DNA from: Caulobacter sp. FWC2
Lineage (GTDB): Bacteria; Pseudomonadota; Alphaproteobacteria; Caulobacterales; Caulobacteraceae
Length of the DNA: 64,000 bases
Assembly (NCBI RefSeq): GCF_002742625.1
Contig: NZ_PEBF01000002.1
Span: forward strand, 201,332-265,331
Reading direction: 5' to 3'
A program made the position numbers and the translations under genes. Of the stretch, positions 14,605 through 53,382 are shown piece by piece (the first letter of the stretch is position 1; each line of letters opens with the position of its first letter). The notes under the pieces are model-generated. The model was not told the DNA's origin. It saw only the letters and a list, made by a program, of their open reading frames with translations, and searched no databases.

Positions 14605-14625
14605 TATTAGAATCGAATTCTCGCA
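14605..14625. promoter_or_regulatory. Operator-like palindrome upstream of the NmrA-like gene
   Basis: TATTAGAAT, three bases, then ATTCTCGCA. The left half matches TATCAGAAT at 8 of 9 and the right half matches ATTCTGATA at 6 of 9. A second AGAATTCT lies at 14595-14602. This is the first of a series of such sites. It is 33 bases before ATG 14658. Confidence 0.55.
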
Positions 14626-14657
14626 TCGGCGTCGCGATGCGTGGGGAGAGCCATCAC

Positions 14658-15497
14658 ATGAAGATCGGGATCAGCGGCGCGGGCGGCAAGCTCGGGGCCG
14701 GCGTCGTGGATGAGCTTCTGCGCCGCGGCGGCCATGACGTCGTGGGCATATCGCGCACGCCGTCGAACCTCTCCGCGCCCGAAACGCGGTTCGGCGACTA
14801 TGATCAGCCGGAAAGCCTTACAGCCGCCTATGCCGGCCTTGACCGTCTGCTGATCATTCCAACGACAGCGCTCGCGCCTGGCCAACGCGCCAGGCAGAAT
14901 ATCGCGGCGATCGACGCGGCGAACCGAGCCGGTGTCGCGCATATCGCCTTCATGTCCTCGTCCGGCGCGAGGGCCAGGCCCGAGCCGGACGTCTGGGCTT
15001 CGTACTTCGCCACCGAGCAGCATCTGATGCGCACCGCGGCGCGCTGGAGCGTTCTGCGAATGAACTACTATATCGAATCCTTCGCGGACGAGGCGCGGCG
15101 CGCGTTCGACCAGGGCGCCCTCGTCGGGCTTGGTGAAAGTAGGGTCGCCTTTGTCTCGCGCGCGGACCTTGCCGCCGCCGCGGCCGGACTCCTGGCAGGG
15201 GCCGGACACGAGGGCGCCATCTACACCGGGACCGGCCCGCGGACATGGTCGGTCGCCGAGCGTCTGGACCTGATCGTCAGGCTCAGCGGAAGGCCGTTGG
15301 CCTCAACAGTGCTGACCCCCGAGGCGTTGCGCGCCGGCCTGAGCCAGAGCGGTCTTCCGCCGCATGTTGTCGAGGTCGCGCTGTCCATTCGGCAAGGCTT
15401 CGTCGATGGCGGTTTCGACATTGTCACCGGCGATATCGAAAGACTTGCTGGGCGTCCGCCGCAAGCCATGGAAGACGCCCTCCGCGACGCCTTCTAG
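14658..15497 (+). CDS. NmrA/QorB-like NAD(P)-binding protein
   Basis: 279 residues from ATG 14658 (GGGGAG ribosome site; an upstream ATG at 14637 is poorer). Atypical SDR of the NmrA-like group: the N-terminal Rossmann motif ISGAGGKLGAGVVDELLRRG matches the QorB (NAD(P)H:quinone oxidoreductase 2) pattern, and there is no YxxxK active site. It ends with a helical C-terminal domain. Possible roles are quinone reduction or redox sensing; the substrate is unknown. It stands alone between the ferredoxin reductase and a convergent thioesterase, with its own operator-like site. Confidence 0.7.
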   Translation: MKIGISGAGGKLGAGVVDELLRRGGHDVVGISRTPSNLSAPETRFGDYDQPESLTAAYAGLDRLLIIPTTALAPGQRARQNIAAIDAANRAGVAHIAFMSSSGARARPEPDVWASYFATEQHLMRTAARWSVLRMNYYIESFADEARRAFDQGALVGLGESRVAFVSRADLAAAAAGLLAGAGHEGAIYTGTGPRTWSVAERLDLIVRLSGRPLASTVLTPEALRAGLSQSGLPPHVVEVALSIRQGFVDGGFDIVTGDIERLAGRPPQAMEDALRDAF

Positions 15498-15526
15498 GGC
15501 GCCGATCGCCTTCGATCGACAAACCG

Positions 15527-15988
15527 TCAGGGCGGGTCGGGACGATCCGCGGACATCTGAGCGCGATGCCGCTCGAAGTGATCCGGTCGCCTCTCGACCC
15601 AGACCCCTTCGGCCGTGGCCCGATCTTGGTGCTCGTCCTCGAGGCGCAACGCGCCCGCCATGGTGATACGCCGTCCCTCACGCGACAGGACCCGCGTCCT
15701 TAGGACGAGCGGCCGCGCAACCGGGACGGGCATGAGGAAGCTGACCGAGAGCGTGGCGGTCACACTCTTGACGCCGCGATGGGTCAGAAAACGGCCCAGG
15801 ACATCGTCGAAAACGCCGGCGATCCAGCCGCCGTGCGCAACTTCCGGACCGCCGTCGAAATCGGCGGGACATTGTACGAATGCCACGCCCTCTTCGGGAG
15901 ACGTGGCGTTAAATAGGTCGGCCCCGAACCGGCAGCTTCTGTCCCCGACCCGGCAGCCCCTGCAGAGCGCGATGCGTTCATCAACCAA
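15527..15988 (-). CDS. PaaI-type hot-dog thioesterase
   Basis: 153 residues; the start is TTG 15988, supported by GGAAGG 7-8 bases upstream. The hot-dog core has the family string AHGGWIAGVFDDVLGRFL, with Asp in the place of the catalytic acidic residue, then a strand TATLSVSFLMPVPV. The N-terminus carries three cysteines (LCRGCRVGDRSC), like a small zinc-ribbon-like extension found in some PaaI homologues. It probably hydrolyses an aryl- or acyl-CoA that would otherwise trap CoA. It is divergent from the IclR gene and shares its operator region. Confidence 0.75.
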   Translation of the reverse strand: MVDERIALCRGCRVGDRSCRFGADLFNATSPEEGVAFVQCPADFDGGPEVAHGGWIAGVFDDVLGRFLTHRGVKSVTATLSVSFLMPVPVARPLVLRTRVLSREGRRITMAGALRLEDEHQDRATAEGVWVERRPDHFERHRAQMSADRPDPP

Positions 15989-16040
15989 GGCTTACCCTTC
16001 CAAAGGTTTTCGGATCGCGCTATGCGAAACGTCATTTGAA

Positions 16041-16049
16041 TATCAGAAT
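16041..16049 (+). promoter_or_regulatory. Operator half-site TATCAGAAT (thioesterase/IclR gap, left)
   Basis: Exact TATCAGAAT on the + strand, about 53 bases upstream of the thioesterase start and 101 bases before the IclR start. The mirror half expected after a 3-base gap is not conserved. It forms an inverted pair with the exact ATTCTGATA 55 bases to the right, so one regulator could bridge the two. Confidence 0.5.
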
Positions 16050-16095
16050 GTATGGAAGCGTCCCGCCGCAGCGCTGATGTTTCGCTTTCAGTATG

Positions 16096-16104
16096 ATTCT
16101 GATA
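16096..16104 (-). promoter_or_regulatory. Operator half-site ATTCTGATA (thioesterase/IclR gap, right)
   Basis: Exact ATTCTGATA on the + strand, that is TATCAGAAT on the - strand, 46 bases upstream of the IclR start. Its position in front of the regulator's own gene is the main reason to propose that the IclR protein binds this motif and regulates itself. Confidence 0.5.
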
Positions 16105-16149
16105 GTGAATTGCTTGAATTTGGCGGTGTTCGTCGAAGATGGAGTGCGC

Positions 16150-16974
16150 ATGGCGCGATCAGCAGTGGGCACGGTCTCCCGCGACGATGGGGAGAGCCTT
16201 GACGGAGGGGGGAGCGACCTTTCCGAAAAGACGGTGATCGTCAAACCCGCGGCCAATGCGATCCGTATCCTGAAATTCCTGGTCGAATCGGGCGGGCCGA
16301 CACGGTCGGTGACCATCTCGCGGAGCCTTGGGCTCAACGCCAGCACCTGCTTCAACATCCTTCGCACTCTGGTGCTGGAGGATGTCGTCGAGTTCGATCC
16401 GCTCACCAAGACCTATACCGTGGGCGTTGGTTTGACGACGCTGATGGGCAATCTGTTGACCGAGGGTCAACGTGTGGCGACCGCCACGCCGCAGATGCGC
16501 GACCTGGCCGATCGCTTCAACATCACCGTGACCCTGTGGAAGCGACTGGGGCCCGACAAGATCATTCTGGTCAAGAGCGTGCCGAGCCCGGCGAACGTTC
16601 GCATTGAAATGGCCGAAGGCCAGCGACTGCCTGTGCTCATGGCCTCGACGGGCCGGATCATGGCGCCGCACCTGGGCTGGACGCGAAAGGACCTGAAGAC
16701 CGCGTTCAAGGCTCTGCGTTGGCAGACACCCCTGACCTTCGAGGACTACTGGGAACAGGTGGAGGCCGCCGAGAGGCGCGGCTGGGCCAGCGACCCGGGC
16801 TACTTCACCAAAGGCGTGCAGACCATCGCCGCGCCGGTGTTTGACCGAACCGGCGATGTGGCCTTCAGCATCGTTGGGGTGATGCTGCTCGGCCAGTATG
16901 AAGACGCCGCGCTCGAAGAGATTGGCACTGCCCTGCGCGACGCTGGCCGGCGCCTGACCAGCGCCCTGACCTGA
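16150..16974 (+). CDS. IclR-family transcriptional regulator
   Basis: 274 residues from ATG 16150 (GGAG 5 bases upstream). An N-terminal tail is followed by the winged helix-turn-helix (about 35-95: NAIRILKFLVESGGPTRSV, LGLNASTCFNILRTLV) and the IclR effector domain (about 110-270, GQRLPVLMASTGRIMAPHLGW, FTKGVQTIAAPVFD). IclR proteins bind short AT-rich palindromes and respond to aromatic or organic acids; DitR of the diterpenoid cluster is one. The TATCAGAAT half-sites in its own promoter and across the island make it the prime candidate master regulator. The binding specificity is inferred. Confidence 0.88.
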   Translation: MARSAVGTVSRDDGESLDGGGSDLSEKTVIVKPAANAIRILKFLVESGGPTRSVTISRSLGLNASTCFNILRTLVLEDVVEFDPLTKTYTVGVGLTTLMGNLLTEGQRVATATPQMRDLADRFNITVTLWKRLGPDKIILVKSVPSPANVRIEMAEGQRLPVLMASTGRIMAPHLGWTRKDLKTAFKALRWQTPLTFEDYWEQVEAAERRGWASDPGYFTKGVQTIAAPVFDRTGDVAFSIVGVMLLGQYEDAALEEIGTALRDAGRRLTSALT

Positions 16975-16985
16975 TCGCCGCGTCA

Positions 16986-17399: not shown

Positions 17400-17446
17400 C
17401 GACTACCCCGCTTTTTTTGCCGCCATGCCGAGATGACGATGGCAGG

Positions 17447-17475
17447 TATTTTCTAGACACTTTTGCGGTTTTTGT
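17447..17475. promoter_or_regulatory. 29-bp element shared with 63.87 kb
   Basis: TATTTTCTAG, ten variable bases, then GGTTTTTGT. The same two blocks with the same spacing recur at 63869-63897. In both places the element lies 45-48 bases upstream of a - strand gene, here the VOC gene. It may be the operator of a second regulator or a special promoter. It overlaps the candidate amidohydrolase promoter on the other strand. Confidence 0.4.
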
Positions 17476-17481
17476 TATAGA
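17454..17481 (+). promoter_or_regulatory. Candidate amidohydrolase promoter
   Basis: TAGACA (17454-17459), 16 bases, TATAGA (17476-17481). The TATAGAAA stretch is shared with the candidate ferredoxin promoter at 57.1 kb. The operator-like palindrome at 17475-17495 overlaps the -10 box. Confidence 0.4.
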
Positions 17482-17495
17482 AAGAAATTCTGAAT
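17475..17495. promoter_or_regulatory. Operator-like palindrome upstream of the amidohydrolase
   Basis: The core AGAAA-GAA-ATTCT follows the AGAAT-N3-ATTCT pattern; the right half ATTCTGAAT matches 7 of 9. Overlap with the -10 box would suit repression in the absence of inducer. Confidence 0.5.
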
Positions 17496-17570
17496 GGCGG
17501 TGGCGGTCCAAAAGCCCTGCCCGGTTGAGAGGCGGCGACAAGCCGCCCTTTTGGAAGCGAGGAAAGCCAG

Positions 17571-18905
17571 ATGACAGTCGATGACATGATCCTTGTGAGC
17601 GTGGACGACCACGTCATCGAGCCGCCGAATGCCTTTACGCCACACTGGCCGCAGCACCTGAAAGGCCGCGAGCCGCACATCGAAGAGCGCGACGGTCGCG
17701 ACGTCTGGATGTTCGAGGAAAAGGCCTCCGGCTACATGGGCCTCAATTCCGTCGTCGGCCGCCCGAAGGAAGAGTACGGCATGGAGCCGCTCAACTACGC
17801 GCAGATGCGCCGCGGCACGTGGGACATCAAGGCGCGCGTTGAGGATATGGACGCCAACGGCATCCTGGGTTCGATCTGCTTCCCGACGTTCCCGGGGTTC
17901 GCCGGCGCTCGGTTCCAAACCGCCTCGAAGCAGGATCCCGAGGTCGCCCTGGCGGCGATCCGGGCCTACAATGACTGGCACTTCTATGACTGGGCCGGCG
18001 CCGCGCCCGGCCGTTTCATCCCGCTTATGCTGACGCCGTTCTGGGACATGCAGGCGGCCGTCGCCGAAGTGGAGCGAATGGCGAAGCTGGGCGTCCACGC
18101 CCTGTCGTTCTCGGACAACCCGGCGCTTGCGGGCTGGCCCTCGCTGCATGACGCCTATTGGGATCCGCTCTGGAAGGCCTGCGCCGACAATCAGGTGGTT
18201 ATCTGCTGCCACATCGGCACGGGCTCGGCGGCCGCGCACGCGTCGGACCTGTCGCCCATCGACGCCTGGATCACCTCGATGCCGATCTCGATCGCCAACT
18301 CGGCGGCCGACTGGATCTGGGCGCCGATGTGGAAGAAGTACCCCACGCTGAAGATGGCCCTTTCCGAAGGCGGCATCGGTTGGATTCCCTACCTGCTGGA
18401 ACGCGCCGATTTCACCCACGGCCACCACAATGCCTGGACCAATTCGAATTTCGGCCCCGGCGTGATGCCCAGCGACATCTACAAGAAGCACATCATCAGC
18501 TGCTTCATCGAAGACAAGTTCGGTCTGGCCAACCTCGACTACATCGGCGAGGACATGGTCATGTACGAATGCGACTATCCGCACTCGGACTCGGTCTGGC
18601 CGCACTCGGCCGAGAAGCTGTGGAACGACGTTCAGCACCTGTCGCGTGAGACGATCGACAAGATCACCCACATCAATGCGATGCGCGAATTCTCCTATGA
18701 CCCGTTCTCGGTGCTGAAGAAGGAAGATTGCACCGTCGGCGCCCTGAAGGCGGCGGCCGCGGCCGTCCCGGTTCATACTGATCCGCTGCTCGGCCTCGGG
18801 GGCGCTGCGCCCAAGCGGGAAGCCGGCAAGCCGGTGACCTCGGGCGACATCAACCGGATGTTCGCGAACGCTTCTGCGGAATCGACGGTCTCGGGCCGCC
18901 GCTAG
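17571..18905 (+). CDS. Amidohydrolase-family (ACMSD-like TIM-barrel) metal-dependent hydrolase or decarboxylase
   Basis: 444 residues. Metal-site strings: SVDDHVIEPP at 10-18 (the D-x-H type first-strand motif), VVICCHIGTGS near 205 for a barrel His, and YECDYPHSDSVW near 325 with the last-strand Asp. Members of this amidohydrolase-2 group act as C-C hydrolases, decarboxylases or lactonases. This long subfamily is common in steroid- and terpenoid-degrading actinobacteria and sphingomonads. The ribosome site is GAGGAA. It is monocistronic, with its own promoter, operator and terminator. Substrate unknown. Confidence 0.8.
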   Translation: MTVDDMILVSVDDHVIEPPNAFTPHWPQHLKGREPHIEERDGRDVWMFEEKASGYMGLNSVVGRPKEEYGMEPLNYAQMRRGTWDIKARVEDMDANGILGSICFPTFPGFAGARFQTASKQDPEVALAAIRAYNDWHFYDWAGAAPGRFIPLMLTPFWDMQAAVAEVERMAKLGVHALSFSDNPALAGWPSLHDAYWDPLWKACADNQVVICCHIGTGSAAAHASDLSPIDAWITSMPISIANSAADWIWAPMWKKYPTLKMALSEGGIGWIPYLLERADFTHGHHNAWTNSNFGPGVMPSDIYKKHIISCFIEDKFGLANLDYIGEDMVMYECDYPHSDSVWPHSAEKLWNDVQHLSRETIDKITHINAMREFSYDPFSVLKKEDCTVGALKAAAAAVPVHTDPLLGLGGAAPKREAGKPVTSGDINRMFANASAESTVSGRR

Positions 18906-18927
18906 ACGGCCCGGCCGGAGATCAAGG

Positions 18928-21344: not shown

Positions 21345-22121
21345 TCAGGACAGGGTGCGGCCGCCATCGACGACGATCGTCTCGCCCACGATGTAGGAGG
21401 CCAGCGGAGACGCCAGGAACAGCGCCACGCCCGCGACCTCCTTGGGAAGGCCCAGGCGCTTGAGGGGAATGCCCCTTAGGCGTTCCTGGAGGCGGTCGGG
21501 GTCGGAGGTGGTGACCGCGGTCATCTTGGTGGCGATCAGGCCCGGCGCGATGCCGTTGACGCGAATGGCGCGTCCGGCCCAGGCGTCGCCCAGCGTCCGC
21601 GTCAAATGGATCGCGCCGGCCTTGGACGCCGAATAGGCCGGATTGCCGCGCGTGGCGCGCAGGCCGCCCACCGAACTGATGATGATCAGGCTTCCGGCCC
21701 GCGCCTCGAGCGCCGGCGCCAGCTTCTGGGCGCAGGCCATAAGGCTGGTCAGGTTAACTTCCACCACGTGGCGGAAGGTGTCGGCCTCGAACTCCTTGCG
21801 CCGGTACTCCACCGCCCCTTGGGACAGGATCGCGACGTCAACAGCCTCAAAAGGCGCGGTCCATTGGTCGATCGCGCCGGGCGTGGCCAGATTCAGGCTG
21901 GAAAATTCAAACGGCTCCAGGGCCGAAGCGCCATCGCCATAGGCGGCCTTGTTCGCACGAGTGCCCGTTATGGCGACTGTCGCGCCGCGCCTGGCGAACT
22001 CTTGCGCGCAGGCCAGCCCGATCCCGCTCGATCCGCCAATGACGAGCACGCGCTTTTCGGTGAAGTCGAGATCCACGAGAGGCCTAAAACGATTGAATGA
22101 AACGGTTGATTTATTTTTCAT
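21345..22121 (-). CDS. Short-chain dehydrogenase/reductase
   Basis: 258 residues. Classical SDR with TGxxxGxG as VIGGSSGIG, and the catalytic Ser and YSASK (IIISSVGGLRATRGNPAYSASKAG). It ends SYIVGETIVVDGGRTLS. First gene of the operon with the ACAD10/11-type pair, so it may oxidise a hydroxy intermediate of the same substrate. Its start codon lies opposite the TetR gene start. Confidence 0.85.
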   Translation of the reverse strand: MKNKSTVSFNRFRPLVDLDFTEKRVLVIGGSSGIGLACAQEFARRGATVAITGTRANKAAYGDGASALEPFEFSSLNLATPGAIDQWTAPFEAVDVAILSQGAVEYRRKEFEADTFRHVVEVNLTSLMACAQKLAPALEARAGSLIIISSVGGLRATRGNPAYSASKAGAIHLTRTLGDAWAGRAIRVNGIAPGLIATKMTAVTTSDPDRLQERLRGIPLKRLGLPKEVAGVALFLASPLASYIVGETIVVDGGRTLS

Positions 22122-22139
22122 GCCTGGGATAAACCGTCA
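22101..22139. promoter_or_regulatory. Inverted repeat between SDR and TetR genes
   Basis: Arms ACGGTTGATT (22102-22111) and ATAAACCGT within 22128-22137 (reverse complement ACGGTTTATC), 8 of 10 positions matching, flanking the two divergent start codons. This is a likely TetR operator. It differs from the TATCAGAAT motif, so this operon seems to have its own control. Confidence 0.5.
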
Positions 22140-22143
22140 ATCC

Positions 22144-22764
22144 ATGAAAGCCGACATCGCCAGGGACGCGATCAAGCGGGCCGCTCAGAGCCTATTCGCC
22201 GCGCGGGGCGTGGACGCTGTCTCCGTGCGCGAAATCCTGACGGCGGCCGGCCATCGCAACGGCGCGTCGCTGCATTACTATTTCGGGTCCAAAGACGACT
22301 TGGTTGAGCAGCTGGTCATCGACGGCGCGCGTCTGATCGATGAGCGCCGCAACGCCCGGCTCGATGCGCTGGAAGCCGATGGCGGGCCTCATGCGCTGCG
22401 AGACGTGATGGAGGTGCTGATCCTGCCGTCCACCGACCTCGGCGAGGGCGGAGGGGAGGGGGACTACCTGCGGTTCATCAGCACTTTCAGCCTGCAAAAC
22501 CGAGTGGCTTTCGACGCCATCGTCGCTGATGGCTGGAACCGGGGCTATCAGCGGTGCCTGGATCATATCCGGCGGCTTTCCGCCTTGCCGCAGGAGATGC
22601 TCGAGCGCCGGCTGGTGTTCCTGAGCTTGGGGCTGCGCGCGATCATGACGGCGCGAGAAGCGGCGCTGGCCGCGCATCCCAATCATGCGTTCTGGGGCGC
22701 TGCTACGCTGGAGGATCTGGTCGAGACGCTCGTGGGCATGGTTACGCCCGAGCCCGGCGTCTAG
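22144..22764 (+). CDS. TetR/AcrR-family regulator
   Basis: 206 residues from ATG 22144; ATG 22120 would add eight. The N-terminal helix-turn-helix is ARDAIKRAAQSLFAARGVDAVSVREILTAAGHRNGASLHYYFGSKDDLVEQL, cited here by its position at residues 6-57. A C-terminal ligand domain follows, with a Gly/Glu-rich loop (GEGGGEGDYL). It is divergent from the SDR-acyl-CoA dehydrogenase-phosphotransferase operon. With only about 22 bases between the start codons, it very probably represses that operon and itself. Confidence 0.85.
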   Translation: MKADIARDAIKRAAQSLFAARGVDAVSVREILTAAGHRNGASLHYYFGSKDDLVEQLVIDGARLIDERRNARLDALEADGGPHALRDVMEVLILPSTDLGEGGGEGDYLRFISTFSLQNRVAFDAIVADGWNRGYQRCLDHIRRLSALPQEMLERRLVFLSLGLRAIMTAREAALAAHPNHAFWGAATLEDLVETLVGMVTPEPGV

Positions 22765-22812: not shown

Positions 22813-22840
22813 ACTCAGAATGAAATTCGTGTATCAGATT
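22813..22840. promoter_or_regulatory. Operator cluster upstream of TonB receptor 1
   Basis: A palindromic site at 22813-22833 (ACTCAGAAT, GAA, ATTCGTGTA; 7/9 and 6/9) is followed directly by a second half-site TATCAGATT at 22832-22840 (8/9). The second ends five bases before the -35 box, an activator-like position. Confidence 0.55.
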
Positions 22841-22845
22841 TTTTC

Positions 22846-31472: not shown

Positions 31473-31493
31473 CGCTAGAATATCGTTCTGAAC
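31473..31493. promoter_or_regulatory. Operator-like palindrome between two divergent beta-oxidation operons
   Basis: Core AGAAT-ATC-GTTCT, right half GTTCTGAAC. It is followed immediately by CAGAGAATTTTG, possibly a second weak half. It lies between the acyl-CoA dehydrogenase operon (left) and the 3-hydroxyacyl-CoA dehydrogenase operon (right) and could control both. Confidence 0.5.
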
Positions 31494-31670
31494 AGAGAAT
31501 TTTGTTTGCGGCTGGGTCGAGTTTCCCCTTACTGTTCAGCGGGCGATGCGGCGGTGAATCCGTCGCGCACGGGAGGAGCAGCGTCTGACGCGACCGGCGC
31601 CGCCGGCGGTCATCGGCGCATCGGCGCTCGCGACAACGCGAGCGGTCCGGTTCAACAAGGGGAAGACATT

Positions 31671-38793: not shown

Positions 38794-39191
38794 TAGGCTT
38801 GCGCCCTTTCGAACAGAGGCACCCAGACGTCCTCGATGTTCTCGAACACGACCGTCACGGGCATGCCGATCTCGACCGCCTGAGGCGGACAATTCACGAT
38901 GTTGGACAGAAAGCGCAGGCCCGCCTGCTCCTCCAGCTCGACGATGGCGACGACATAGGGCTCGCTGAGGTCGGGAGTCCAAGCCTGGTGATTGATGGTG
39001 AACGTCAACACCCGACCGCGTCCCGACACCGCCGTGGGCGCGACGTTGAGGCTGGAGCAATGGCGACAGATCGGCGCTGGAGGGTGAAAGAATTGCGCGC
39101 AGTCCCCGCAGCGGTGCATCCGCAGTTCACCGACCTCGCCGCCGGTCCAGAACGGCTGCGTCTCGGCGTTGAGCAGGGGAAGTTTTCTCAT
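38793..39191 (-). CDS. DUF35 zinc-ribbon/OB-fold partner protein
   Basis: 132 residues. Rubredoxin-like zinc ribbon (MHRCGDCAQFFHPPAPICRHC, four Cys at about 27-46), then an OB-fold (GRGRVLTFTINHQAW, AIVELEEQAGLRFLSNIV, GMPVTVVFENI). This protein activates SCP2-type thiolases and aldolases by binding alongside them and helps to hold acyl-CoA. Its stop overlaps the start of the SCP2-type gene as TAATG, which fixes a stoichiometric pair. Confidence 0.9.
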   Translation of the reverse strand: MRKLPLLNAETQPFWTGGEVGELRMHRCGDCAQFFHPPAPICRHCSSLNVAPTAVSGRGRVLTFTINHQAWTPDLSEPYVVAIVELEEQAGLRFLSNIVNCPPQAVEIGMPVTVVFENIEDVWVPLFERAQA

Positions 39192-41378: not shown

Positions 41379-41528
41379 GACCGCGAGCCCGCCATGCGTT
41401 GGCAACGAGGTTGGGGGGGCGTGCGTAGGCTGACGATCACGGGTATCCTCCGGACGCGGTCTGGGCAGCGTCTCTTTCGGTGACGCTAGAACGGCCGACG
41501 CAATTCGGCAAGCGAAACGCACTTCTGG

Positions 41529-41537
41529 TATCAGAAT
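41529..41537 (+). promoter_or_regulatory. Operator half-site TATCAGAAT (MFS/quinone reductase gap)
   Basis: Exact TATCAGAAT; with the bases before it, it also forms TTCTG-GTAT-CAGAA. It ends seven bases before the -35 box of the + strand promoter, an activator-like position. It lies about 150 bases upstream of the MFS start. Confidence 0.55.
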
Positions 41538-41620: not shown

Positions 41621-42643
41621 GTGCGCGCGCTGACGAGCTTTGAGCCTGGCGGCCCTGAAACCCTGAAGATCCGCGATGTGGACGAGCCTTCGCCTGGGCC
41701 AGGTCAAGTCGCTGTCGCCGTCCAGGCCTGCGGGGTCAATTTCCCGGATCTGCTGGTCATTGAGGATAAGTATCAACTGCGGCCGGCGCGGCCGTTTTCG
41801 CCGGGCAGCGAATTGGCCGGCGTGGTGCGCGCGATCGGCGAGGGTGTCACCGCGCCGGGCGTGGGTGATCGGGTTTCGGCGTCGCTGCCGTTCGGCGCGA
41901 TGGCCGAGGTGGCCATCGTGGCGGCGGACCGGTGCACTGTTCTGCCTGACGCCATGCCCATCGAGGAAGCTGCGGCGTTGCAGGTGACCTATGGAACCGT
42001 CTTTCACGCCCTGGTGGGCTGCGCAGGCATGCGGCCGGGGGAAACGCTCTTGGTTCTGGGCGCCGGCGGCGGTGTCGGCCTCGCGGCCGTGGAATTGGGG
42101 AAGGCCCTAGGCGCTCGCGTGGTCGCCGCGGCGTCTTCGCACGACAAGCTCGAAGCCGCCCGCGCGGCCGGCGCCGATGCGCTCGTGCATTATCCGGGCG
42201 CGTTCGAGGGTGTCGCTCAGGCGAGGGCCTTTACCGAGGCCGTGCGGGCCGCCAGCGGCGGGGAAGGGGTCAATGTCGTCATCGACCCGGTCGGGGGAGC
42301 CTATGCAGAGCCGGCATTCCGCGCCATCGCCGCGCAGGGGCGGTATCTGGTCGTGGGCTTTGCGGCCGGAATCCCGGCGATCCCGCTCAATCTCGTCCTG
42401 CTCAAGGCCGCCCAGATCATCGGCGTTTTCTGGGGGGCCTACATGGCGCGCGACCCTCAATCCGGCGCGCGGGACATGAAGGCGTTGCTGGACCTCTATC
42501 AGGCGGGCAAGATCCGGCCGCGCATCTCCGAGCGCTATGCGTTGGAGGAAGGTGGAAGGGCGATCGCGCGGCTGGGCGCGCGGGGTGTGACCGGCAAGAT
42601 TGTCGTAACCGTATCGAGTTCTGAAAACAGAACGAAAGACTAA
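41621..42643 (+). CDS. Zinc-independent MDR-family quinone oxidoreductase or enoyl reductase
   Basis: 340 residues from GTG 41621 with GAGG upstream. Medium-chain dehydrogenase/reductase: GroES-like N-domain (VQACGVNFPDLLVIEDKYQLRP, FSPGSELAGVV), then the NADP Rossmann motif VLGAGGGVGLAAVELGKALG near 150 and VIDPVGGAYAEPAFRAI. No zinc-ligand Cys set. Family members reduce quinones or enoyl-CoA double bonds; in a catabolic island either is plausible. It probably leads a two-gene operon with the acyl-CoA synthetase. Confidence 0.85.
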   Translation: MRALTSFEPGGPETLKIRDVDEPSPGPGQVAVAVQACGVNFPDLLVIEDKYQLRPARPFSPGSELAGVVRAIGEGVTAPGVGDRVSASLPFGAMAEVAIVAADRCTVLPDAMPIEEAAALQVTYGTVFHALVGCAGMRPGETLLVLGAGGGVGLAAVELGKALGARVVAAASSHDKLEAARAAGADALVHYPGAFEGVAQARAFTEAVRAASGGEGVNVVIDPVGGAYAEPAFRAIAAQGRYLVVGFAAGIPAIPLNLVLLKAAQIIGVFWGAYMARDPQSGARDMKALLDLYQAGKIRPRISERYALEEGGRAIARLGARGVTGKIVVTVSSSENRTKD

Positions 42644-42652
42644 TATCAGAAT
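42618..42652. promoter_or_regulatory. Operator-like palindrome plus TATCAGAAT before the acyl-CoA synthetase
   Basis: A perfect 16-bp palindrome GTTCTGAAAACAGAAC (42618-42633) lies inside the last codons of the quinone reductase gene. An exact TATCAGAAT follows at 42644-42652, just after its stop. The acyl-CoA synthetase may therefore have its own regulated start besides read-through. Confidence 0.55.
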
Positions 42653-44474: not shown

Positions 44475-44506
44475 CTCGAGGCCAGCCGCGAGGTATTTTA
44501 TCCTGA

Positions 44507-44527
44507 TAGCAGAATTAAATTCTCCCA
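44507..44527. promoter_or_regulatory. Operator-like palindrome upstream of TonB receptor 2
   Basis: TAGCAGAAT, TAA, ATTCTCCCA, the best symmetric core (AGAAT-N3-ATTCT) in the series, extended by TGAT on the left and ATCAG on the right. It is 123 bases before the receptor start. The rest of the 175-base gap is AT-richer than the genes. Confidence 0.6.
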
Positions 44528-44649
44528 TCAGACTAAAGCGATTGACTTAGATGCGGAGCTGAGTTCCCTTCCGCTCATAAGCGATCGTGCGAGTTCGTTG
44601 AAATCGTCCAGATCGCGGCCGCGCATAGCGCGCAAGGGAGGGACGATCC

Positions 44650-46932: not shown

Positions 46933-47023
46933 TAACCGCGCCCGGCTCGCGCCAAACTCTGCGGCGCGGTGATCCGGGCGGACCGCGCTTCCCGGCTCGC
47001 CCGCCGATCGCAAGGAAATCACG

Positions 47024-47914
47024 ATGCGATTGTTGTCCTTTGATCTGAACGGCGCGCCGACCACTGGCGTGCGTCTGGGCGATGAGGTGATCGATCTGGG
47101 CGTCGCCGCGCCGGATTTGCCGCGAGACCTCCGCGGGCTGCTGGCGGCTGGTCCCCAGGCCCTGGCGGCGGCCGAACGCGCCGCCGCCGCCGCGCCCGGC
47201 CACGCCCGTCACCCGCTCGAGCGCGTGCGCCACCTGGTGCCCATCCCTAGACCGGACAAGATCATCGGCCTGGGCAAGACCTACATGAAGCACGTCGCCG
47301 AAATGAACGCCGAGGCGTCGACGTTTCCAGGCATGTTCCTGCGCGCGCCCGATTCCATGGTCGCCCACAACCGGCCTATCTGGCGGCCGGAAGTCTCCGA
47401 CACCCTCGACTACGAGGGCGAACTGATGGTTGTCATTGGCCGGGGCGGGTGGATGATCCCGCGCGAAAGCGCGCTCGAGCACGTCGCCGGCTATGCCTGC
47501 CACAACGACGGCAGCGTCCGCGCCTACAACTACATCCCTTCGGCGGTCACCGCCGGTAAGAACTTCCTCAACACCGGCGGGCTCGGTCCCGAGATCGTCA
47601 CCGCTGACGAGTTGCCGCCAGGCTGCAAGGGCTTGCGGCTCACCACCCACGTCAACGGCGAGCTGCGGCAGAGCGCCGACATCGCCGAAATGCATTGGGA
47701 CGTCGCGCACCTGGTTCACCTGATGTCGACGATCTTCACGCTCTATCCCGGCGACTTGATCGCCACCGGAACGCCTTCCGGCTGCGCGGCGGCGGCGGCC
47801 AGCCCCCAGTGGTTAACGCCGGGCGACGTGGTGCGCGTGGAGATCGAGGGCGTCGGGACGCTGGTCAATCCGATCGTGGACGCGCCCCGGGCAGGGGCGG
47901 GCGACCAAAGCTAG
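47024..47914 (+). CDS. Fumarylacetoacetate hydrolase-family protein 2
   Basis: 296 residues (AAGGA ribosome site). N-terminal FAH-associated domain (about 1-65), then the catalytic fold: KIIGLGKTYMKHVAEM, LDYEGELMVVIGRG (Glu-x-Glu ligands), YACHNDGSVRAYN (Asp ligand), and TLYPGDLIATGTPSGCAAA with PGDVVRVEIEGVG. The order matches 2-oxo-acid hydratase/decarboxylase and acylpyruvase types. It is only distantly like FAH 1. Its stop shares CTAG with the convergent SDR, repeating the FAH 1 arrangement. Confidence 0.86.
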   Translation: MRLLSFDLNGAPTTGVRLGDEVIDLGVAAPDLPRDLRGLLAAGPQALAAAERAAAAAPGHARHPLERVRHLVPIPRPDKIIGLGKTYMKHVAEMNAEASTFPGMFLRAPDSMVAHNRPIWRPEVSDTLDYEGELMVVIGRGGWMIPRESALEHVAGYACHNDGSVRAYNYIPSAVTAGKNFLNTGGLGPEIVTADELPPGCKGLRLTTHVNGELRQSADIAEMHWDVAHLVHLMSTIFTLYPGDLIATGTPSGCAAAAASPQWLTPGDVVRVEIEGVGTLVNPIVDAPRAGAGDQS

Positions 47915-48702
47915 CGCACCATCATCAGACCGCCATCCACCGCCAGGGTCTGGCCGGTGATGAAGCGCGAGGCGTCGCTGGCCAGGAAGACCAGCACCGG
48001 CGCCATGTCCGCGTCCGGGTCGCCGAGCCGACCGCCCAGCGGGATCATCATGGCCATGCCCCGGTCGTGGGCCTCGAGCTGCTCGGGCGACATGCCCGCG
48101 CGGGTCGTGTCGTACATCGGCGTCCACATGCCGGGCGCGACCGCGTTGACCGAGACGCCGTAGCGTCCCCACTCCTGGGCGATCGTGCGCGTCCAGGCCA
48201 GGACCGCGCCCTTCGACGCGGCGTAGTGTGCGCAGCCGCGCAGGCCCATGGCGCCGGCCGCGGACGCGAAATTGACGATACGGCCGCCGCGCGCCTTGAG
48301 GTGGGGGAAGGCGGCTTGGTTGGCGATCATCGTGCCCTTGGCGTTGACACCAACCACCAGGTCCCACTCCTCGTCGGTGATCGCCTCCGCGGGCGTGTAG
48401 CGCTGGACCCCCGCGACGTGGATCAGGACATCAAGGCCGCCCATCTCTTCGACGGCCCGATTGATGGCCGCCGTCGCCGAGGTGCGCGAGGACACGTCAC
48501 ACAGATCGAAGGTCAGCCGCCCAGCGTCCCTGACCTCAGGCGCGCCGGCCGCGGCGACCGAAACATCCAGACCGCAGACTCTCGCGCCGGCCGCGGTCAA
48601 CGCCCTGGCGGCGCTGGCCCCGATGCCGCGCGCCGCGCCCGTGACGATGATCTTCTTTCCCGAAAGGGTGGCTGTGTCTGTCATGCCGGTCTCGTCTGTC
48701 AT
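47911..48702 (-). CDS. Short-chain dehydrogenase/reductase
   Basis: 263 residues; ATG 48684 is an alternative start after a small duplicated ATGACAGAC. Classical SDR: VTGAARGIG, IHVAGVQRY, catalytic Ser and Tyr/Lys in NFASAAGAMGLRGCAHYAASKGA, ending RFITGQTLAVDGGLMMV. It is divergent from TonB receptor 3 across a 217-base gap holding an operator-like site, so it may share that control. Confidence 0.87.
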   Translation of the reverse strand: MTDETGMTDTATLSGKKIIVTGAARGIGASAARALTAAGARVCGLDVSVAAAGAPEVRDAGRLTFDLCDVSSRTSATAAINRAVEEMGGLDVLIHVAGVQRYTPAEAITDEEWDLVVGVNAKGTMIANQAAFPHLKARGGRIVNFASAAGAMGLRGCAHYAASKGAVLAWTRTIAQEWGRYGVSVNAVAPGMWTPMYDTTRAGMSPEQLEAHDRGMAMMIPLGGRLGDPDADMAPVLVFLASDASRFITGQTLAVDGGLMMVR

Positions 48703-48804
48703 CCGTATGCGGGGAGGTGGGGGCTTTGATGGGCGCTTGATGAGGCTTGGCCGCCCATGTGGCGAGCGCGCGACTGATCGTCGCGTTTTGGAATGATCTT
48801 CTTA

Positions 48805-48849
48805 TCTCAGATTTTTATTCTTGCGACAGATTTCCAATTCTGTTTAGTT
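48805..48849 (+). promoter_or_regulatory. Operator-like site and candidate promoter of TonB receptor 3
   Basis: TCTCAGATT, TTT, ATTCTTGCG at 48805-48825 (7/9 and 5/9). It is followed by TTGCGA (48821-48826), 17 bases and TTAGTT (48844-48849). The half-site ends seven bases before the -35 box. The block CAGATTTTT...TTCTTGCGA is almost the same as in front of TonB receptor 1. Confidence 0.5.
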
Positions 48850-48919
48850 TGACTGTAAATATGGCGCTCGCTGGCGGCCATAAAAATGCGGGGCGCTAGA
48901 CCCCCGAGGGGAGGTTTCG

Positions 48920-51379
48920 ATGCCATTCAGGACCAATCAACCTGTGTCCAAATTTCTGTGGCGCGGAAGCGCGCTGGGCCTGCTGGCCTGCACGGCGCTG
49001 ACGGCGCCTGCGTTCGCCCAGAGCGCCGCGCCTCAAGCCTCGCCCCAGTCGGACCAGCTGGAAGAAGTCGTCGTCACCGCCCGCCGGCAGGAGGAAAATC
49101 TCCAGAGCACGCCGGTCGCGGTCACCGCGATCGGGGCCGCCGCGCTGGAGCGCGCCCAGGTGGCCGACGTCACCGATCTCCAACGCACAACGCCCAGCCT
49201 CTCGATCGCCACCGGCGCGCCTTCCGCGTCGGGTTTCGCCTTCGTGGCTATGCGCGGCCAAGGCAACCTGCAGGCCCTGGTCTCCAACGACCCGGCCGTC
49301 GCCATCTATGTCGATGGCGTCTACATTCCGCGGCCCTCCCAAGGGCTCACCGACCTGCTCGACCTGCAGCGCGTCGAAGTCCTGCGCGGGCCGCAGGGGA
49401 CGCTGTTTGGCCGCAACACCATCGGCGGCGCGGTCAACATCCTGTCCGCTGACCCGACCAGTCAATACAGCGGCCTGGTGAAGATCGAAGCGGGCAACTA
49501 CGGTCAGTACGGCGCCAGCCTCGTGCTTAATGGCGGCCTGACCGACAAGATCTCCGGCCGACTGGTCGCCAACACCAAGAGCCGCGACGGGTACGGCCAG
49601 GACATTCCGCTGGGCCGCGACATCTGGGCCCAGGACAGCGATTTCGTTCGCGCCAAGCTCAAATACGAAGACGGTTCGGTTCGCCTGATCCTGTCGGGCG
49701 ACTATAATAAGATCAAGGACAACGGCCAGTTCACCGCCCTGCATGCCTATGCGCCGGAGCTGTTTGGGCCCACCGGCTCGTTCGGGCCGTTCGGTCTGGC
49801 TTCGACCTTGAACGCCTCCCTGCACAATCGCGGCTTCTACGACAGTTACGCGACGGGCTTCTTCGTCCCGACGAGCAATCCCAACTTCGCCAGCCTGCCG
49901 GCCAATGTCCGGGCCATGTACTCGATGCCGCTGGGCAATCGCCTGGAGGCCTATGGCTTTGGCCTCAACGGTTCGGTGGACCTGGGCGGCGTGACCCTGA
50001 AGTCGATCACTGGCTATCGCTTCAGCGATACCGACGGCGTCGTCGACACTGACGGCACGCCCGCCCCGATCCTGACGACCTGGGCCGGCTACAGCTCCAA
50101 GCAATGGTCGCAGGAACTCCAGATCAACGGGGGCGTCGGCGAGAAGTTCACCTACATCGCGGGCGGCTATTTCTCCGATGAGAAGGGCCAGGAATTCAGC
50201 CGGTCGCAGAACTTCGGCTTCCTGCCGTATTCGGCCACCACCCGTCCCTATGCCGGCCTGGCCGGGCAAAACCTCGCCGACGTGCACAATCGCTCGGTCG
50301 GCGTCTTCGGTCAGGGCTACTATCAGCTGACCGAGGCCGTCCGGCTCGCGGGCGGGCTTCGCTGGACCTGGGACGATCGCGACACCAAGCTGTATAATTA
50401 TTCCACTTGGGGCGTCGCCACGACGTGCAACCTGCCCAACCCGGATGTCGCGGGCGTATGCGCCCAGACCCAGAAGACCAGCTTCGACTATCCCGCTTGG
50501 ACATTCGGCATCGACTGGCAGGTCAATGACGATGTGTTCGCCTATGTGCAGACGCGGCGGGCGTCCAAGTCTGGCGGCTGGAACACGCGCGCCGGCGGCC
50601 TTCCGGCCTTCCGGCCCGAGACCACGCGGGACGTCGAAGCGGGCCTAAAGGCCACATGGTTGGAAAACCGCCTGCGCACGAACATCGCCGTCTTCCACTC
50701 CTGGCAGTCGGACGTTCAGCGCAACGCCGCGGCGCTGACGCCGGCTGGGGCCAGCACCCAATTCATCGTCAACGCCGGCGACGCCCGGGTCTATGGCGTG
50801 GAGCTGGAAGGCGCCTACCGTCCTTGGACGGGCATGGAGCTGACCAGCAGCCTCAGCCTGATGAACGGCAAGTATAAGAGCGGATCGTTCATCGAGCAGC
50901 AGTCCGTGCCGGGCGCGTCCTTGACGGGCTGCAAGGCCGCGGGCGCCTCGTCGATCTGCCCGGTGGACCGGAGCGGCGAGGAATTGCCGCAGCTTCCCAA
51001 GGTTCAATTCAACCTGGGCGCCACCCAGACCCTGCCCACCTCGTTCGGGCGCGTGTCGCTGCACGCCGACTACGCCTATCTGGGCAAGCAGTTCTATAAT
51101 CCGGTCACGCCGGCCGCCCAGCAATCGGCCACGACCCAGGGCATCTATGCGACGGCGAACGTCCTGACCCGCACGCCAGGCTATGGTCTGCTGAACGCCC
51201 GCTTTACCGTCGAATTCGACGCTCACAACATCGAACTGGCCATCTACGGGAAGAACCTGACCAAGAAGGAATACAACGTCCGCCAGTTCGCCGACGTCTA
51301 TGCCGCGGGTCTTGGCTTTGCGACGGACTTCATCGGCGAGCCGCGAACCTACGGAGCCTCCCTCACCAAGCGTTTCTAA
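48920..51379 (+). CDS. TonB-dependent outer-membrane receptor 3
   Basis: 819 residues. Signal peptide (LGLLACTALTAPAFAQ, cleavage near 34), TonB box (LEEVVVTARRQEE), plug with VEVLRGPQGTLFGRNTIGGAVNIL, barrel with EVERY-other-strand aromatic pattern, and a final Phe (TYGASLTKRF). Same plug class as receptor 2 but longer. It stands alone and ends at a strong terminator. With receptors 1 and 2 it gives three uptake routes, perhaps for related molecules; no TonB or ExbBD genes are in the window. Confidence 0.9.
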   Translation: MPFRTNQPVSKFLWRGSALGLLACTALTAPAFAQSAAPQASPQSDQLEEVVVTARRQEENLQSTPVAVTAIGAAALERAQVADVTDLQRTTPSLSIATGAPSASGFAFVAMRGQGNLQALVSNDPAVAIYVDGVYIPRPSQGLTDLLDLQRVEVLRGPQGTLFGRNTIGGAVNILSADPTSQYSGLVKIEAGNYGQYGASLVLNGGLTDKISGRLVANTKSRDGYGQDIPLGRDIWAQDSDFVRAKLKYEDGSVRLILSGDYNKIKDNGQFTALHAYAPELFGPTGSFGPFGLASTLNASLHNRGFYDSYATGFFVPTSNPNFASLPANVRAMYSMPLGNRLEAYGFGLNGSVDLGGVTLKSITGYRFSDTDGVVDTDGTPAPILTTWAGYSSKQWSQELQINGGVGEKFTYIAGGYFSDEKGQEFSRSQNFGFLPYSATTRPYAGLAGQNLADVHNRSVGVFGQGYYQLTEAVRLAGGLRWTWDDRDTKLYNYSTWGVATTCNLPNPDVAGVCAQTQKTSFDYPAWTFGIDWQVNDDVFAYVQTRRASKSGGWNTRAGGLPAFRPETTRDVEAGLKATWLENRLRTNIAVFHSWQSDVQRNAAALTPAGASTQFIVNAGDARVYGVELEGAYRPWTGMELTSSLSLMNGKYKSGSFIEQQSVPGASLTGCKAAGASSICPVDRSGEELPQLPKVQFNLGATQTLPTSFGRVSLHADYAYLGKQFYNPVTPAAQQSATTQGIYATANVLTRTPGYGLLNARFTVEFDAHNIELAIYGKNLTKKEYNVRQFADVYAAGLGFATDFIGEPRTYGASLTKRF

Positions 51380-51406
51380 TCCCGCAGTTCCGCTCGGGGC
51401 TGACTG

Positions 51407-51439
51407 GCCGTCGACCGCTTAACGGTCGGCGGCTTTTTT
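51407..51439 (+). terminator. Hairpin terminator after TonB receptor 3
   Basis: An 11-bp stem GCCGTCGACCG with CGGTCGGCGGC (one T-G pair), 5-base loop, followed by TTTTTT. A clear intrinsic terminator 27 bases after the stop. Confidence 0.85.
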
Positions 51440-51478
51440 CATAAGCAATGTTCGGCCGAAAAGAGTTTCGCCGACGCC

Positions 51479-51509
51479 AAAAGGGCCCCCATCGCGCGAT
51501 GGGGGCCCT
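51479..51509 (-). terminator. Hairpin terminator after the P450 gene
   Basis: A perfect 28-bp palindrome (51482-51509; half AGGGCCCCCATCGC), followed on the - strand by TTTT. It lies 43 bases beyond the P450 stop. With the preceding + strand terminator it insulates the two convergent genes. Confidence 0.75.
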
Positions 51510-51551
51510 GCGCTTCGCGCCGCGGCGCAGCGGGAAATGGGGTGCGAGCGC

Positions 51552-52832
51552 CTACGGGGCGTCCCACACCACATGGACCGCGTCCGGGCCGCGCAAGGAG
51601 ACGCCTCGCACCTCCGGCCGGGGGTGGGCCGGGTCCAGACGCAGATTGGGCAGCATGTCTAGAAGGAGACCGACCGCCTCCTCGATCTCCACCTTGGCCA
51701 GCCACATCCCGACGCACATGTGGGCGCCAAAACCAAACCCGAAGGCCGCCATCTGCTTGCGGTCGATGTCGAACGCGTCGGGATTGTCAAACACGGCCTC
51801 GTCGCGGTTGGCCGAGGCGACGCAGGCCGAAATGATCGCGCCCTTGGGGATGGTCACGTCCTGCAGCGTGACCTCGGTCTGGCACTCGCGGACCTTGAAC
51901 GTGGCGACCGCGTCGTGGCGGACGCTCTCGTCCAAGACCTTCCGCATCAAGGTCCGATCCGCCCGCAGGCGCTCGAGCACCTCGGGGTGGTCGAAGAGGT
52001 GGGTCATCATGATCGCGAAGGTCCTGGAGGTGGTCTCCGACGCGGCGGGCAGCATCATCCGCACGAAATTGGTGATCTGATGATCGTTCAGGGTTCGACC
52101 CTCGAACTCGGCCCGGATCAGGCGGCTGATCAGGTCCGCGCCCTCGGCGCCGGAAGCCCGGCGGGCCTGGACGGCGGCCAGGGTCGGGTCATAGAGCTCC
52201 TGGAAGGCCTGGAACGCCGCGCGTTTGGCCTCCGGGTCGTTGGCCATGCCGCCCAGCACTTTCAGCGCCTTGGTGGCGAAGGCTTCGAGCGCAGCGGGAT
52301 CGTCGTCCTGGAAGCCCAGGACAGCGTAGACCACGTGAATGGGGAACATCACGCCGACGCTGCCGATCAGCTCGGCCTTGCCCAGCGGCACGAGCGGCTC
52401 AACGAACGAGCGCTTGATTAGGGGGCGGATATAGGTCTCGCGCCATTCTTCCATGACCGCGGGCGTGAACGAGGGTTGCAAGATGCCGCGTAGCTGCCGG
52501 TGCTCATCGCCGTCCAGCCCCGTGATCATCAGCCCGTCGAGGAACGGACCCAGGCCCGTCTCCATCAGGATCCCGCTCGTGAAGGTCTTGGTGTCGCGCA
52601 ACACCTTCATCACGTCGGCGTGCTTGAAGATCGTATAGATCGGCCGGCCCGTTTGGCCCGCGAAGGAGGCCGCGCCCAGCTCGGCGCAGATGTCGCCCTC
52701 CATCACGGGCAGGTTGTTTCGATGGTGGCGATAGATCGCCTCGAGGTTCTTGTCGTTGCCCGCGAACAGGGCGCCGACCTGGGCGAAGCCGTCGGCAAGA
52801 TCCTTGTTGGGAGCCATCTGGGCGGTGCTCAT
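51552..52832 (-). CDS. Cytochrome P450 (class I bacterial type)
   Basis: 426 residues, soluble, without a membrane anchor. I-helix AASETT (263-268; acid-Thr pair intact), ExxR at E302-R305 (DESVRHD), and heme loop FGFGFGAHMCVGMWLAK with the Cys ligand at C373. It needs a ferredoxin and reductase, available at 57.2 kb and 13.3 kb. GGAAGG precedes the ATG. It is monocistronic with its own operator-like site and terminator. By analogy with DitQ/DitU or monoterpene P450s it may hydroxylate or epoxidise a terpenoid or aromatic ring; the substrate is not known. Confidence 0.92.
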   Translation of the reverse strand: MSTAQMAPNKDLADGFAQVGALFAGNDKNLEAIYRHHRNNLPVMEGDICAELGAASFAGQTGRPIYTIFKHADVMKVLRDTKTFTSGILMETGLGPFLDGLMITGLDGDEHRQLRGILQPSFTPAVMEEWRETYIRPLIKRSFVEPLVPLGKAELIGSVGVMFPIHVVYAVLGFQDDDPAALEAFATKALKVLGGMANDPEAKRAAFQAFQELYDPTLAAVQARRASGAEGADLISRLIRAEFEGRTLNDHQITNFVRMMLPAASETTSRTFAIMMTHLFDHPEVLERLRADRTLMRKVLDESVRHDAVATFKVRECQTEVTLQDVTIPKGAIISACVASANRDEAVFDNPDAFDIDRKQMAAFGFGFGAHMCVGMWLAKVEIEEAVGLLLDMLPNLRLDPAHPRPEVRGVSLRGPDAVHVVWDAP

Positions 52833-52884
52833 CGGTGTTCCTTCCCGGAAGTTCGGCCCGCTGTGCGGACTCAGATTATTTCAA

Positions 52885-52905
52885 ATGCAGAATAGTATTC
52901 TAGAA
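52885..52905. promoter_or_regulatory. Operator-like palindrome upstream of the P450 gene
   Basis: ATGCAGAAT, AGT, ATTCTAGAA: a perfect AGAAT-N3-ATTCT core 53 bases upstream of the P450 start, in the short gap after the limonene-epoxide-hydrolase-like gene. Confidence 0.6.
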
Positions 52906-52937
52906 GAGAAGTCCATGGGAATTTGGCTTTGGGTCCT

Positions 52938-53336
52938 TCAGTGTCCGTGGATCGCGCTGACGGCGCCCGGGTCGGTGTAGTCTCGCCATCGAACGAGCCG
53001 GCCGTCGTCGTCCAACTCGAAAACGCCCGCGATCGAGAAGGCGCCGATCTCGCGCCCGTCGGCGGCCAGGAGGCGATCAACGCGCTCGGTCAGGACGACA
53101 TTGCCCGTCGCGGCGATATGCAGTGTTTCCACGATGATTGTCGCATAGCCCATGCTGGCCTCGAACTGCGCGCCCAGCGCCAGCGCCTCGTCGGCGCCGA
53201 CCGTGCGCGACAGGCCCATATTGGTCCATTCCGTGTCGGCCCGAAAAAGATCGCGGATCGCCTGCTCGAGCCGCTCGGGCCCCTCGGACCAGGCGTCCAG
53301 AAAGGTCCGGATAATATCGATCGGCGCACGGCTCAT
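52938..53336 (-). CDS. Limonene-1,2-epoxide hydrolase-like protein
   Basis: 132 residues, cone-shaped alpha/beta fold of the SnoaL/LEH group. The LEH catalytic set is visible: R85 and D87 in TERVDRLL, D119 in VRWRDYTD, and N39 in EWTNMG, with Trp37 where the Rhodococcus enzyme has the water-holding Tyr. Spacing between these residues matches the family within two positions. It would add water to an epoxide in the cytosol. AAGGAA precedes ATG 53336. It is upstream of and co-directional with the P450 gene, which could supply the epoxide. The epoxide hydrolase call is inference from motifs. Confidence 0.75.
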   Translation of the reverse strand: MSRAPIDIIRTFLDAWSEGPERLEQAIRDLFRADTEWTNMGLSRTVGADEALALGAQFEASMGYATIIVETLHIAATGNVVLTERVDRLLAADGREIGAFSIAGVFELDDDGRLVRWRDYTDPGAVSAIHGH

Positions 53337-53354
53337 CGGGCGCGTTCCTTAAGA

Positions 53355-53382
53355 ATTCTGATGGCGGAATTTAATTTCGACG
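53355..53382. promoter_or_regulatory. Operator-like sites between LEH-like and glutathione peroxidase genes
   Basis: ATTCTGATG (53355-53363; 8/9 half-site) runs into a full site TGGCGGAAT, TTA, ATTTCGACG (53362-53382; 6/9 and 5/9). It sits 19 bases from the LEH-like start and about 75 bases before the peroxidase start. GCTAGGCT at 53403-53410 could be the peroxidase -10. Confidence 0.5.

Follow-up and report, generated by a model that had tools for sequence, protein, structure and literature searches.

A recurring three- and four-box operator on a catabolic plasmid of Caulobacter sp. FWC2, most likely read by an adjacent IclR-family protein

We analysed a 64,000-nucleotide stretch of DNA from Caulobacter sp. 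FWC2 (RefSeq assembly GCF_002742625.1, contig NZ_PEBF01000002.1, positions 201,332 to 265,331; hereafter the window), in which an initial annotation had proposed that a repeated palindrome marks one large catabolic regulon controlled by an IclR protein. The window carries a conserved operator set of a known type whose most probable reader, judging from sequence comparisons, is the neighbouring IclR protein, and the regulon is larger than usual for the IclR family (~14 sites vs one or two operons). The motif is real, but the operator unit differs from the palindrome first described: it is built from half-sites that alternate with a period of 19 bp, AGAAT-N3-ATTCT-N6-AGAAT-N3-ATTCT, three or four boxes making up a site, and alignment of the sites side by side shows an N6 spacer that is often near gATATc.

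The half-site TATCAGAAT is present exactly where it had been reported, at 16041, 41529 and 42644 on the plus strand and at 16096 on the minus strand. With up to one mismatch it occurs 12 times in the window, against 3.45 (standard deviation 1.95) expected from shuffled sequence, and none of 100 shuffles reached 12. The core AGAAT-N3-ATTCT with up to two mismatches gave 18 matches (7.97 expected, standard deviation 2.90), a count reached by one shuffle of 100. Among the core positions that had been listed as having at most two changes, 53362 has three and is missing from our list at that threshold. The 21-bp palindrome TATCAGAAT-N3-ATTCTGATA that had been named as the unit does not occur, its best match in the window covering 14 of 18 positions; the description had overlooked a second register, at 14590, 41514, 42629 and 48790, which is the source of the 19-bp period. 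A motif-blind count of 4-mer dyads in the 22 intergenic regions between 13 and 54.5 kb also put the N3 pair on top: AGAA-N5-TTCT occurred 10 times and AGAA-N4-ATTC 11 times, each against 0.05 expected from base composition (log10 p of -19 and -22), far above shuffled sequence. G+C-rich dyads score high as well, such as GCGC-N3-GCGC (log10 p -20.6).

The operators and the two regulator genes discussed below are as follows, in window coordinates unless marked C2 (coordinates of the whole contig); the genes at the C2 sites are named from Caulobacter sp. FWC26.
14590..14621: four-box operator GGAAT-N3-ATTCT-N6-AGAAT-N3-ATTCT before an NmrA-like gene (14658-15497), overlapping a -10-like TAGAAT
16026..16049: operator GAAAC-N3-ATTTG-N6-AGAAT in the hotdog/iclR divergent promoter region
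16096..16111: second N6 palindrome, ATTCT-N6-GAATT, 54 bp ahead of the iclR start codon
16150..16974, plus strand: IclR-family regulator of 274 amino acids (PF01614/PF09339; annotated IclR in FWC26 plasmid p1), the candidate binder of every site
17468..17491: three-box operator before the amidohydrolase gene (17571-18905), aligned in seven loci
22093..22764, plus strand: TetR-family regulator (PF00440), a rival binder that we disfavour
22817..22840: operator before TonB receptor 1 (22961-25420), with a TTG 5 bases past its last box
31477..31500: operator between the divergent acyl-coenzyme A (CoA) dehydrogenase operon (31417, minus) and hydroxyacyl-CoA dehydrogenase operon (31671, plus)
41514..41537: operator between an MFS gene (41378, minus) and a quinone oxidoreductase-like gene (41621, plus)
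42618..42652: four-box operator before an acyl-CoA ligase gene (42852-44474), overlapping the end of the gene ahead of it
44500..44534: four-box operator before TonB receptor 2 (44650-46932)
48790..48821: four-box operator between an SDR gene (48702, minus) and TonB receptor 3 (48920, plus)
52878..52901: three-box operator before a cytochrome P450 gene (52832-51552, minus), with similar sites in relatives G288, G1033 and G1034
53355..53378: three-box operator between a LEH-like gene (53336, minus) and a glutathione peroxidase gene (53456, plus)
C2:24574, past the window end: site between an amidohydrolase and an MFS gene
C2:30727, past the window end: site before a tannase-like gene
C2:36822, past the window end: site before a fourth TonB receptor

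The window is the final 64 kb of contig C2 (265,331 bp), one of the two contigs of the genome. Because the first and last 16.7 kb of C2 carry the same sequence (99.7% identity, 35 gap openings; window 47257-64000 corresponds to C2:1-16744), C2 is an uncollapsed circular plasmid of ~248.6 kb. The genome totals 5.51 Mb, of which the chromosome makes up 5.25 Mb, and the plasmid has 66% G+C. The 8.7 kb that we tested (window 14.5-23.2 kb) are 99.3% identical to plasmid p1 of Caulobacter sp. FWC26, a 298-kb plasmid typed as conjugative whose source is activated sludge.

The three-box pattern with up to two mismatches is found at 11 places on the plasmid (248.6 kb) and at two on the chromosome (5.25 Mb), with the contig overlap and both strands counted once; given the chromosomal rate, the Poisson p for 11 plasmid places is ~1e-19. 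Eight of the 11 lie in the window and three past its end, and the set is thus not confined to 14.6-53.4 kb as had been thought. This concentration on the catabolic plasmid segment, together with recurrence at orthologous promoters, supports the proposal of a single regulon. The exact core occurs at five places in the whole genome, one on the chromosome and four on the plasmid contig, one of the latter being the duplicate of 52889 within the overlap of the contig ends. As the initial annotation had it, the sites precede catabolic, TonB-receptor and P450 genes.

For scoring, we trained a matrix on eight N3 pairs (16 half-sites) of the window, which makes the plasmid scores circular and leaves the other genomes as a held-out set. 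The plasmid maximum, 41.0, falls on 14590-14621, itself in the training set. Fourteen plasmid sites score above 18.5, 13 of them intergenic; across all records this holds for 58 of 63 sites, against 8-28% intergenic DNA, although the 14 plasmid sites among the 63 are not independent of the training set. Above a score of 14 we found 20, 12, 13, 10 and 12 sites in C2, G288, G1034, G1033 and G1036, respectively, exceeding in each case the 0-7, 0-5, 0-5, 0-4 and 0-4 obtained with ten wrong spacings, some of which retain the 19-nt total and so are not fully independent. A reversed pattern gave 0-2 matches per record. The leucine operon (0-13 kb), described earlier as free of sites, indeed has none above 14. 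In the same 0-13 kb, a weak N6 palindrome lies between the Lrp-type gene and the branched-chain dehydrogenase genes, TTTCTGACATCAGAAG (window 2317-2332, C2:203648; three mismatches), which is probably unrelated.

Seven loci in Caulobacter and Brevundimonas genomes encode IclR proteins with 79-88% identity to that of the window and largely retain its gene order within locus reach. At orthologous promoters the boxes and their spacing are conserved while the surrounding DNA diverges. Before the amidohydrolase gene, the boxes are among the best-conserved stretches of the seven aligned loci; before TonB receptor 1, boxes, spacing and the subsequent TTG are retained in all four loci possessing the gene, which L078 and L080 do not have. 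The N6 pair of the iclR promoter (16026-16049, 16096-16111) is recognisable in six of eight aligned loci, the exceptions being L078 and L079, and the site of the NmrA-like gene is retained in L074 and absent before the NmrA-like gene of L079. The amidohydrolase leader also has a GC-rich hairpin directly before the ribosome site (window 17531-17550); similar hairpins fold in the four leaders tested of six aligned, two with G-U stem pairs, but with z-scores of only -0.4 to -2.2.

The sites co-occur with iclR. In a 299-genome sample of the family, IclR was detected in six genomes (E <= 1e-60), and all six have at least two sites with up to one mismatch, compared to nine of the 293 others (Fisher p 5e-9); at least one match occurs in 55 of the 299. 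In the six genomes, 69 of 76 strand-wise matches (up to two mismatches) lie on the iclR contig, while the reversed pattern gave two matches; the 76 include five in G000 from the contig overlap, and the tallies 69/76, 9/293 and 49/293 (see below) were counted by eye. G288 is a single 4.0-Mb contig, with its 11 matches within 54 kb. Among genomes found via named loci, the IclR contig carries 10 of 10 matches in G1034, nine of 10 in G1033 and two of 11 in G1036, where seven more are on the contig with the TetR gene; in G1035, three of seven are on the TetR contig and the remaining four on another. G288, G1033 and G1034 are similar in their sites, and G236/G1032 and G186/G1037 give identical listings, each pair being one genome under two handles. 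Of the nine IclR-negative genomes with at least two matches, three (G197, G203 and G218, of the same genus) have two similar three-box-like sites separated by 14-18 kb, which may belong to a different regulator.

The protein encoded at 16150-16974 is an IclR-family member (PF09339 28.2 bits, cut-off 22; PF01614 61.7 bits, cut-off 24). All seven of its PDB matches are IclR-type regulators, including BlcR (3mq0), TtgV and a Pca-regulon regulator, and its recognition-helix stretch, N-x-STCFN-x-LRTL, is identical in nine of nine aligned IclR proteins, itself included. Sphingomonad relatives exist at 55-58% identity; when more distant carriers were sought at E <= 1e-55 among 385 genomes sampled from the class and 398 from the phylum, our own genome was the sole hit. 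Two distant carriers are informative: G227, of the same genus (IclR 45% identical), and a Massilia putida plasmid (49%), both with many pathway genes at ~40-75% identity. When five regulators of the cluster were sought in these two, only IclR gave matches at 45-49%; TetR2 had one 33% match in the Massilia plasmid, and TetR3 and GntR (encoded past the window) had none in 120 kb of G227 or in the Massilia plasmid. The two best-scoring sites of the 457-kb Massilia plasmid are in the iclR promoter (ATTCT-AACCTT-AGAAT-CAA-ATTTT, 62 bp before iclR) and at an operon of the same cluster. We scored 120 kb of G227; its five top sites fall between 147.5 and 178.7 kb (within 32 kb), with iclR at 150.7 kb, and genome-wide eight of nine pattern matches are on that stretch of contig C9. 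A Sphingopyxis plasmid with relatives of the amidohydrolase and ligase yielded no pattern match, and the surrounding 41 kb no IclR match. We favour IclR as the reader because the sites follow iclR across genomes, including the two distant carriers, where the G227 genome and the Massilia plasmid record have no match to the window's TetR; the operator architecture is also of IclR type. The assignment of IclR as binder, made in the initial annotation, is thereby supported, and we are highly confident that the sites are operators of this protein.

The position of the boxes relative to the promoters suggests activation at several genes. Among 22 plasmid half-sites that face a promoter (a manual selection), six are followed by a TTG whose first base comes 10 or 12 nt from the start of the last box, that is, 5-7 bases past its end (binomial p 0.002; the five-offset range was set once the data had been pooled). 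Just upstream of -35 is the usual position for activators. The three promoters for which this geometry had been predicted, at 22.8, 41.5 and 48.8 kb, are among the six. Over 91 pooled promoter-facing sites, which include many orthologs and are not independent, TTG starts 30 times at offsets 9-13 and 51 times over the 52 other offsets, and some of the six plasmid half-sites have CTA-containing -10-like elements ~31-34 nt from the first base of the last box. The 17.48-kb site behaves differently: as noted earlier, its boxes (17468-17491) overlap a -10-like TATAGA, part of TAGACA-N16-TATAGA. TAGACA is retained in six of seven loci, four of which also have the exact TATAGA. The overlap of 14590-14621 with its TAGAAT is weak, the promoter scan giving four promoter-like sites vs 2.0 in shuffles.

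What we observe is that the sites exist with a fixed spacing, recur at orthologous promoters and accompany iclR across genomes; we infer binding, a tetramer, a ligand and the sign of regulation. A dimer of dimers of IclR would probably occupy TTC-N8-GAA palindromes arranged in tandem at a distance of 19 bp. When its ligand is present, for which a CoA ester or an acid formed as an intermediate from a cyclic terpenoid-like substrate is the probable candidate, IclR may activate from just upstream of -35 the genes for TonB receptors 1-3 and the fourth receptor past the window end, and likewise the hydroxyacyl-CoA dehydrogenase/thiolase operon and the quinone oxidoreductase-like gene. It would repress the amidohydrolase and NmrA-like genes, where the site overlaps a -10-like box, and may also control its own divergent promoter. 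IclR might instead bind all sites purely as a repressor released with substrate, a view that concerns only the sign of regulation and not the binder. Members of the family may repress, activate or do both (PMC8222616, text), and two sites overlap -10-like boxes; we nevertheless consider pure repression unlikely given the six promoters with the last box at the activator position and the pooled TTG excess.

Several points weigh against the IclR regulon as outlined. The TTG geometry is seen in just the six of 22 half-sites. Two further dyads, TTCT-N6-AGAA (six times, log10 p -10.5) and the direct repeat AGAA-N16-GAAT (five times vs 0.05 expected, log10 p -8.4), both rank near the top but do not exceed the best of five shuffles (-11.3; the other four gave -6.6 to -8.2). 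The cut of at least two hits was chosen after the data were seen, and the plasmids of G000 and G221 are almost identical. By number of sites above a score of 14, the distant carriers stand out little: the 13 in Massilia are inside the wrong-spacing range of 2-15 and the seven in G227 barely above controls (1-6), and in both only the top-scoring sites cluster. The Massilia site that ranks third (451694) is a stretch of A/T-rich DNA distant from the cluster, and before the G227 iclR itself there is a weak site alone (150610, score 8-10). The N3 pair is also 2 bp closer than the group-2 pair given in the text of PMC8222616.

One rival view is that the motif is bound by the TetR-family protein (22093-22764) as repressor of the pathway, with IclR as a passenger. 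Its gene sits beside iclR in the cluster, a TetR match turned up in 11 of 14 records searched, including all with a closely related cluster, and TetR proteins are able to bind overlapping palindromes. However, at E 1e-15 neither the G227 genome nor the Massilia or Sphingopyxis plasmid (plasmid records only for these two) contains a TetR match, and G227 and Massilia have the motif all the same. No site above 14 precedes tetR itself, and the operators are built in the way known from the IclR family. Presence and absence across relatives thus disfavour TetR, which we regard as very unlikely to be the binder. Still less credible is a regulator coded elsewhere, such as the chromosomal IclR protein at C1:1460552: the genome holds exactly two IclR_C proteins, leaving this one further family member, but the chromosome carries just two three-box places and the motif tracks the plasmid-type IclR across genomes. 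Chance, in the form of A/T-rich promoter islands in a 66% G+C plasmid, is the least probable origin of all: the 13-bp core by itself is only ~twofold above shuffles, the wrong-spacing controls are not empty and 49 of the 293 family genomes lacking IclR contain one or more matches with up to one mismatch, yet the shuffles, reversed patterns, wrong spacings and conservation at orthologous promoters amid diverging DNA strongly disfavour it.

The genes behind the proposed IclR operators belong to a pathway that probably breaks down resin-like ring compounds. Pfam assigns acyl-CoA dehydrogenases, enoyl-CoA hydratases, a hydroxyacyl-CoA dehydrogenase, thiolases, a CoA ligase, FAH-type hydrolases, SDRs, P450, MFS and TonB receptors. 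Nearby are ring-hydroxylating dioxygenase alpha and beta subunits, a ferredoxin, an SDR, a lipid-transfer-protein-like thiolase, a CoA ligase, a P450 and a 304-amino-acid VOC protein, read as extradiol-type. Ferredoxin, MFS, SDR and VOC genes lie at or past the window end, several of them frameshifted in the window copy. From ~58.8 kb, SDR and VOC genes are broken in the window copy and intact in the other overlap copy; gene calls there are therefore unreliable. An adjacent acyl-CoA dehydrogenase pair (window 29256-31417) and a thiolase plus OB-fold pair (37603-39191) have an arrangement that may resemble the enzyme pairs of steroid side-chain degradation.

The gene set resembles published descriptions of the dit clusters for resin acids (PMC13063091, PMC12628601, PMC10710418), which we treat as a lead; the regulator named in abietane-diterpenoid clusters, DitR, is of IclR type (PMC12628601), as is that of the window. 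The dioxygenase operon (55-57 kb) sets the window apart from these clusters: it has no site above 14 and is probably under another regulator, apart from the IclR targets. Of 394 relatives of the dioxygenase alpha subunit, the 120 listed bear generic names. A bolder reading, which we consider less likely than not, is that IclR acts as a DitR-type dual-action master regulator over a whole terpenoid-catabolic island (~14 operators, ~70 kb, four TonB-receptor promoters), with the alternating 8/11-bp box spacing reflecting a tetramer-DNA arrangement undescribed for the family.

These results provide a concrete operator, regulator and gene list for a plasmid pathway so far only generically annotated. 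The co-regulated genes help define the pathway, point to likely uptake receptors and might be used as a substrate biosensor, and the 8/11 spacing is a structural prediction open to testing.

The text of Suvorova and Gelfand (2021; PMC8222616) describes IclR operators as TYC...GRA palindromes, predicts three alternating boxes in 32 orthologous groups, and reports tandem sites with 18-22 nt between centres in 94 groups, consistent with tetramer binding. The operators of the window match this catalogue in their TTC...GAA palindromes, three alternating boxes and tandem distance of 19 nt. TTC-N8-GAA is the spacing of the W4 (12-spaced) subgroup of group 1, while the flanks of the core deviate from the W4 consensus, with A for G before TTC and T for R after, and the box is ATTCT/AGAAT rather than GTTYC-like. 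The inward pair, GAA-N5-TTC, does not follow the group-2 second pair as given there, TGRAACA-N1-2-TGTTYCA. A palindrome with an extra direct half-site, needed for PcaU binding, is likewise known from PcaU and PobR of Acinetobacter (PMC8222616, text), three-box IclR-family activators of catabolic genes whose box sequence differs from ours; the window IclR is far below the cut-off of the PcaR/PcaU/PobR subfamily (47.8 vs 284.75 bits). A search of the open-licence literature, including a word search of the PMC8222616 text (supplementary tables excluded), did not turn up an operator reported for any terpenoid IclR regulator. As a rule, a protein of this family regulates its own gene plus one or two operons next to it (PMC8222616, text), whereas here one regulator appears to own ~14 operators over ~70 kb: the operator set is of a known type, and the regulon appears to be new.

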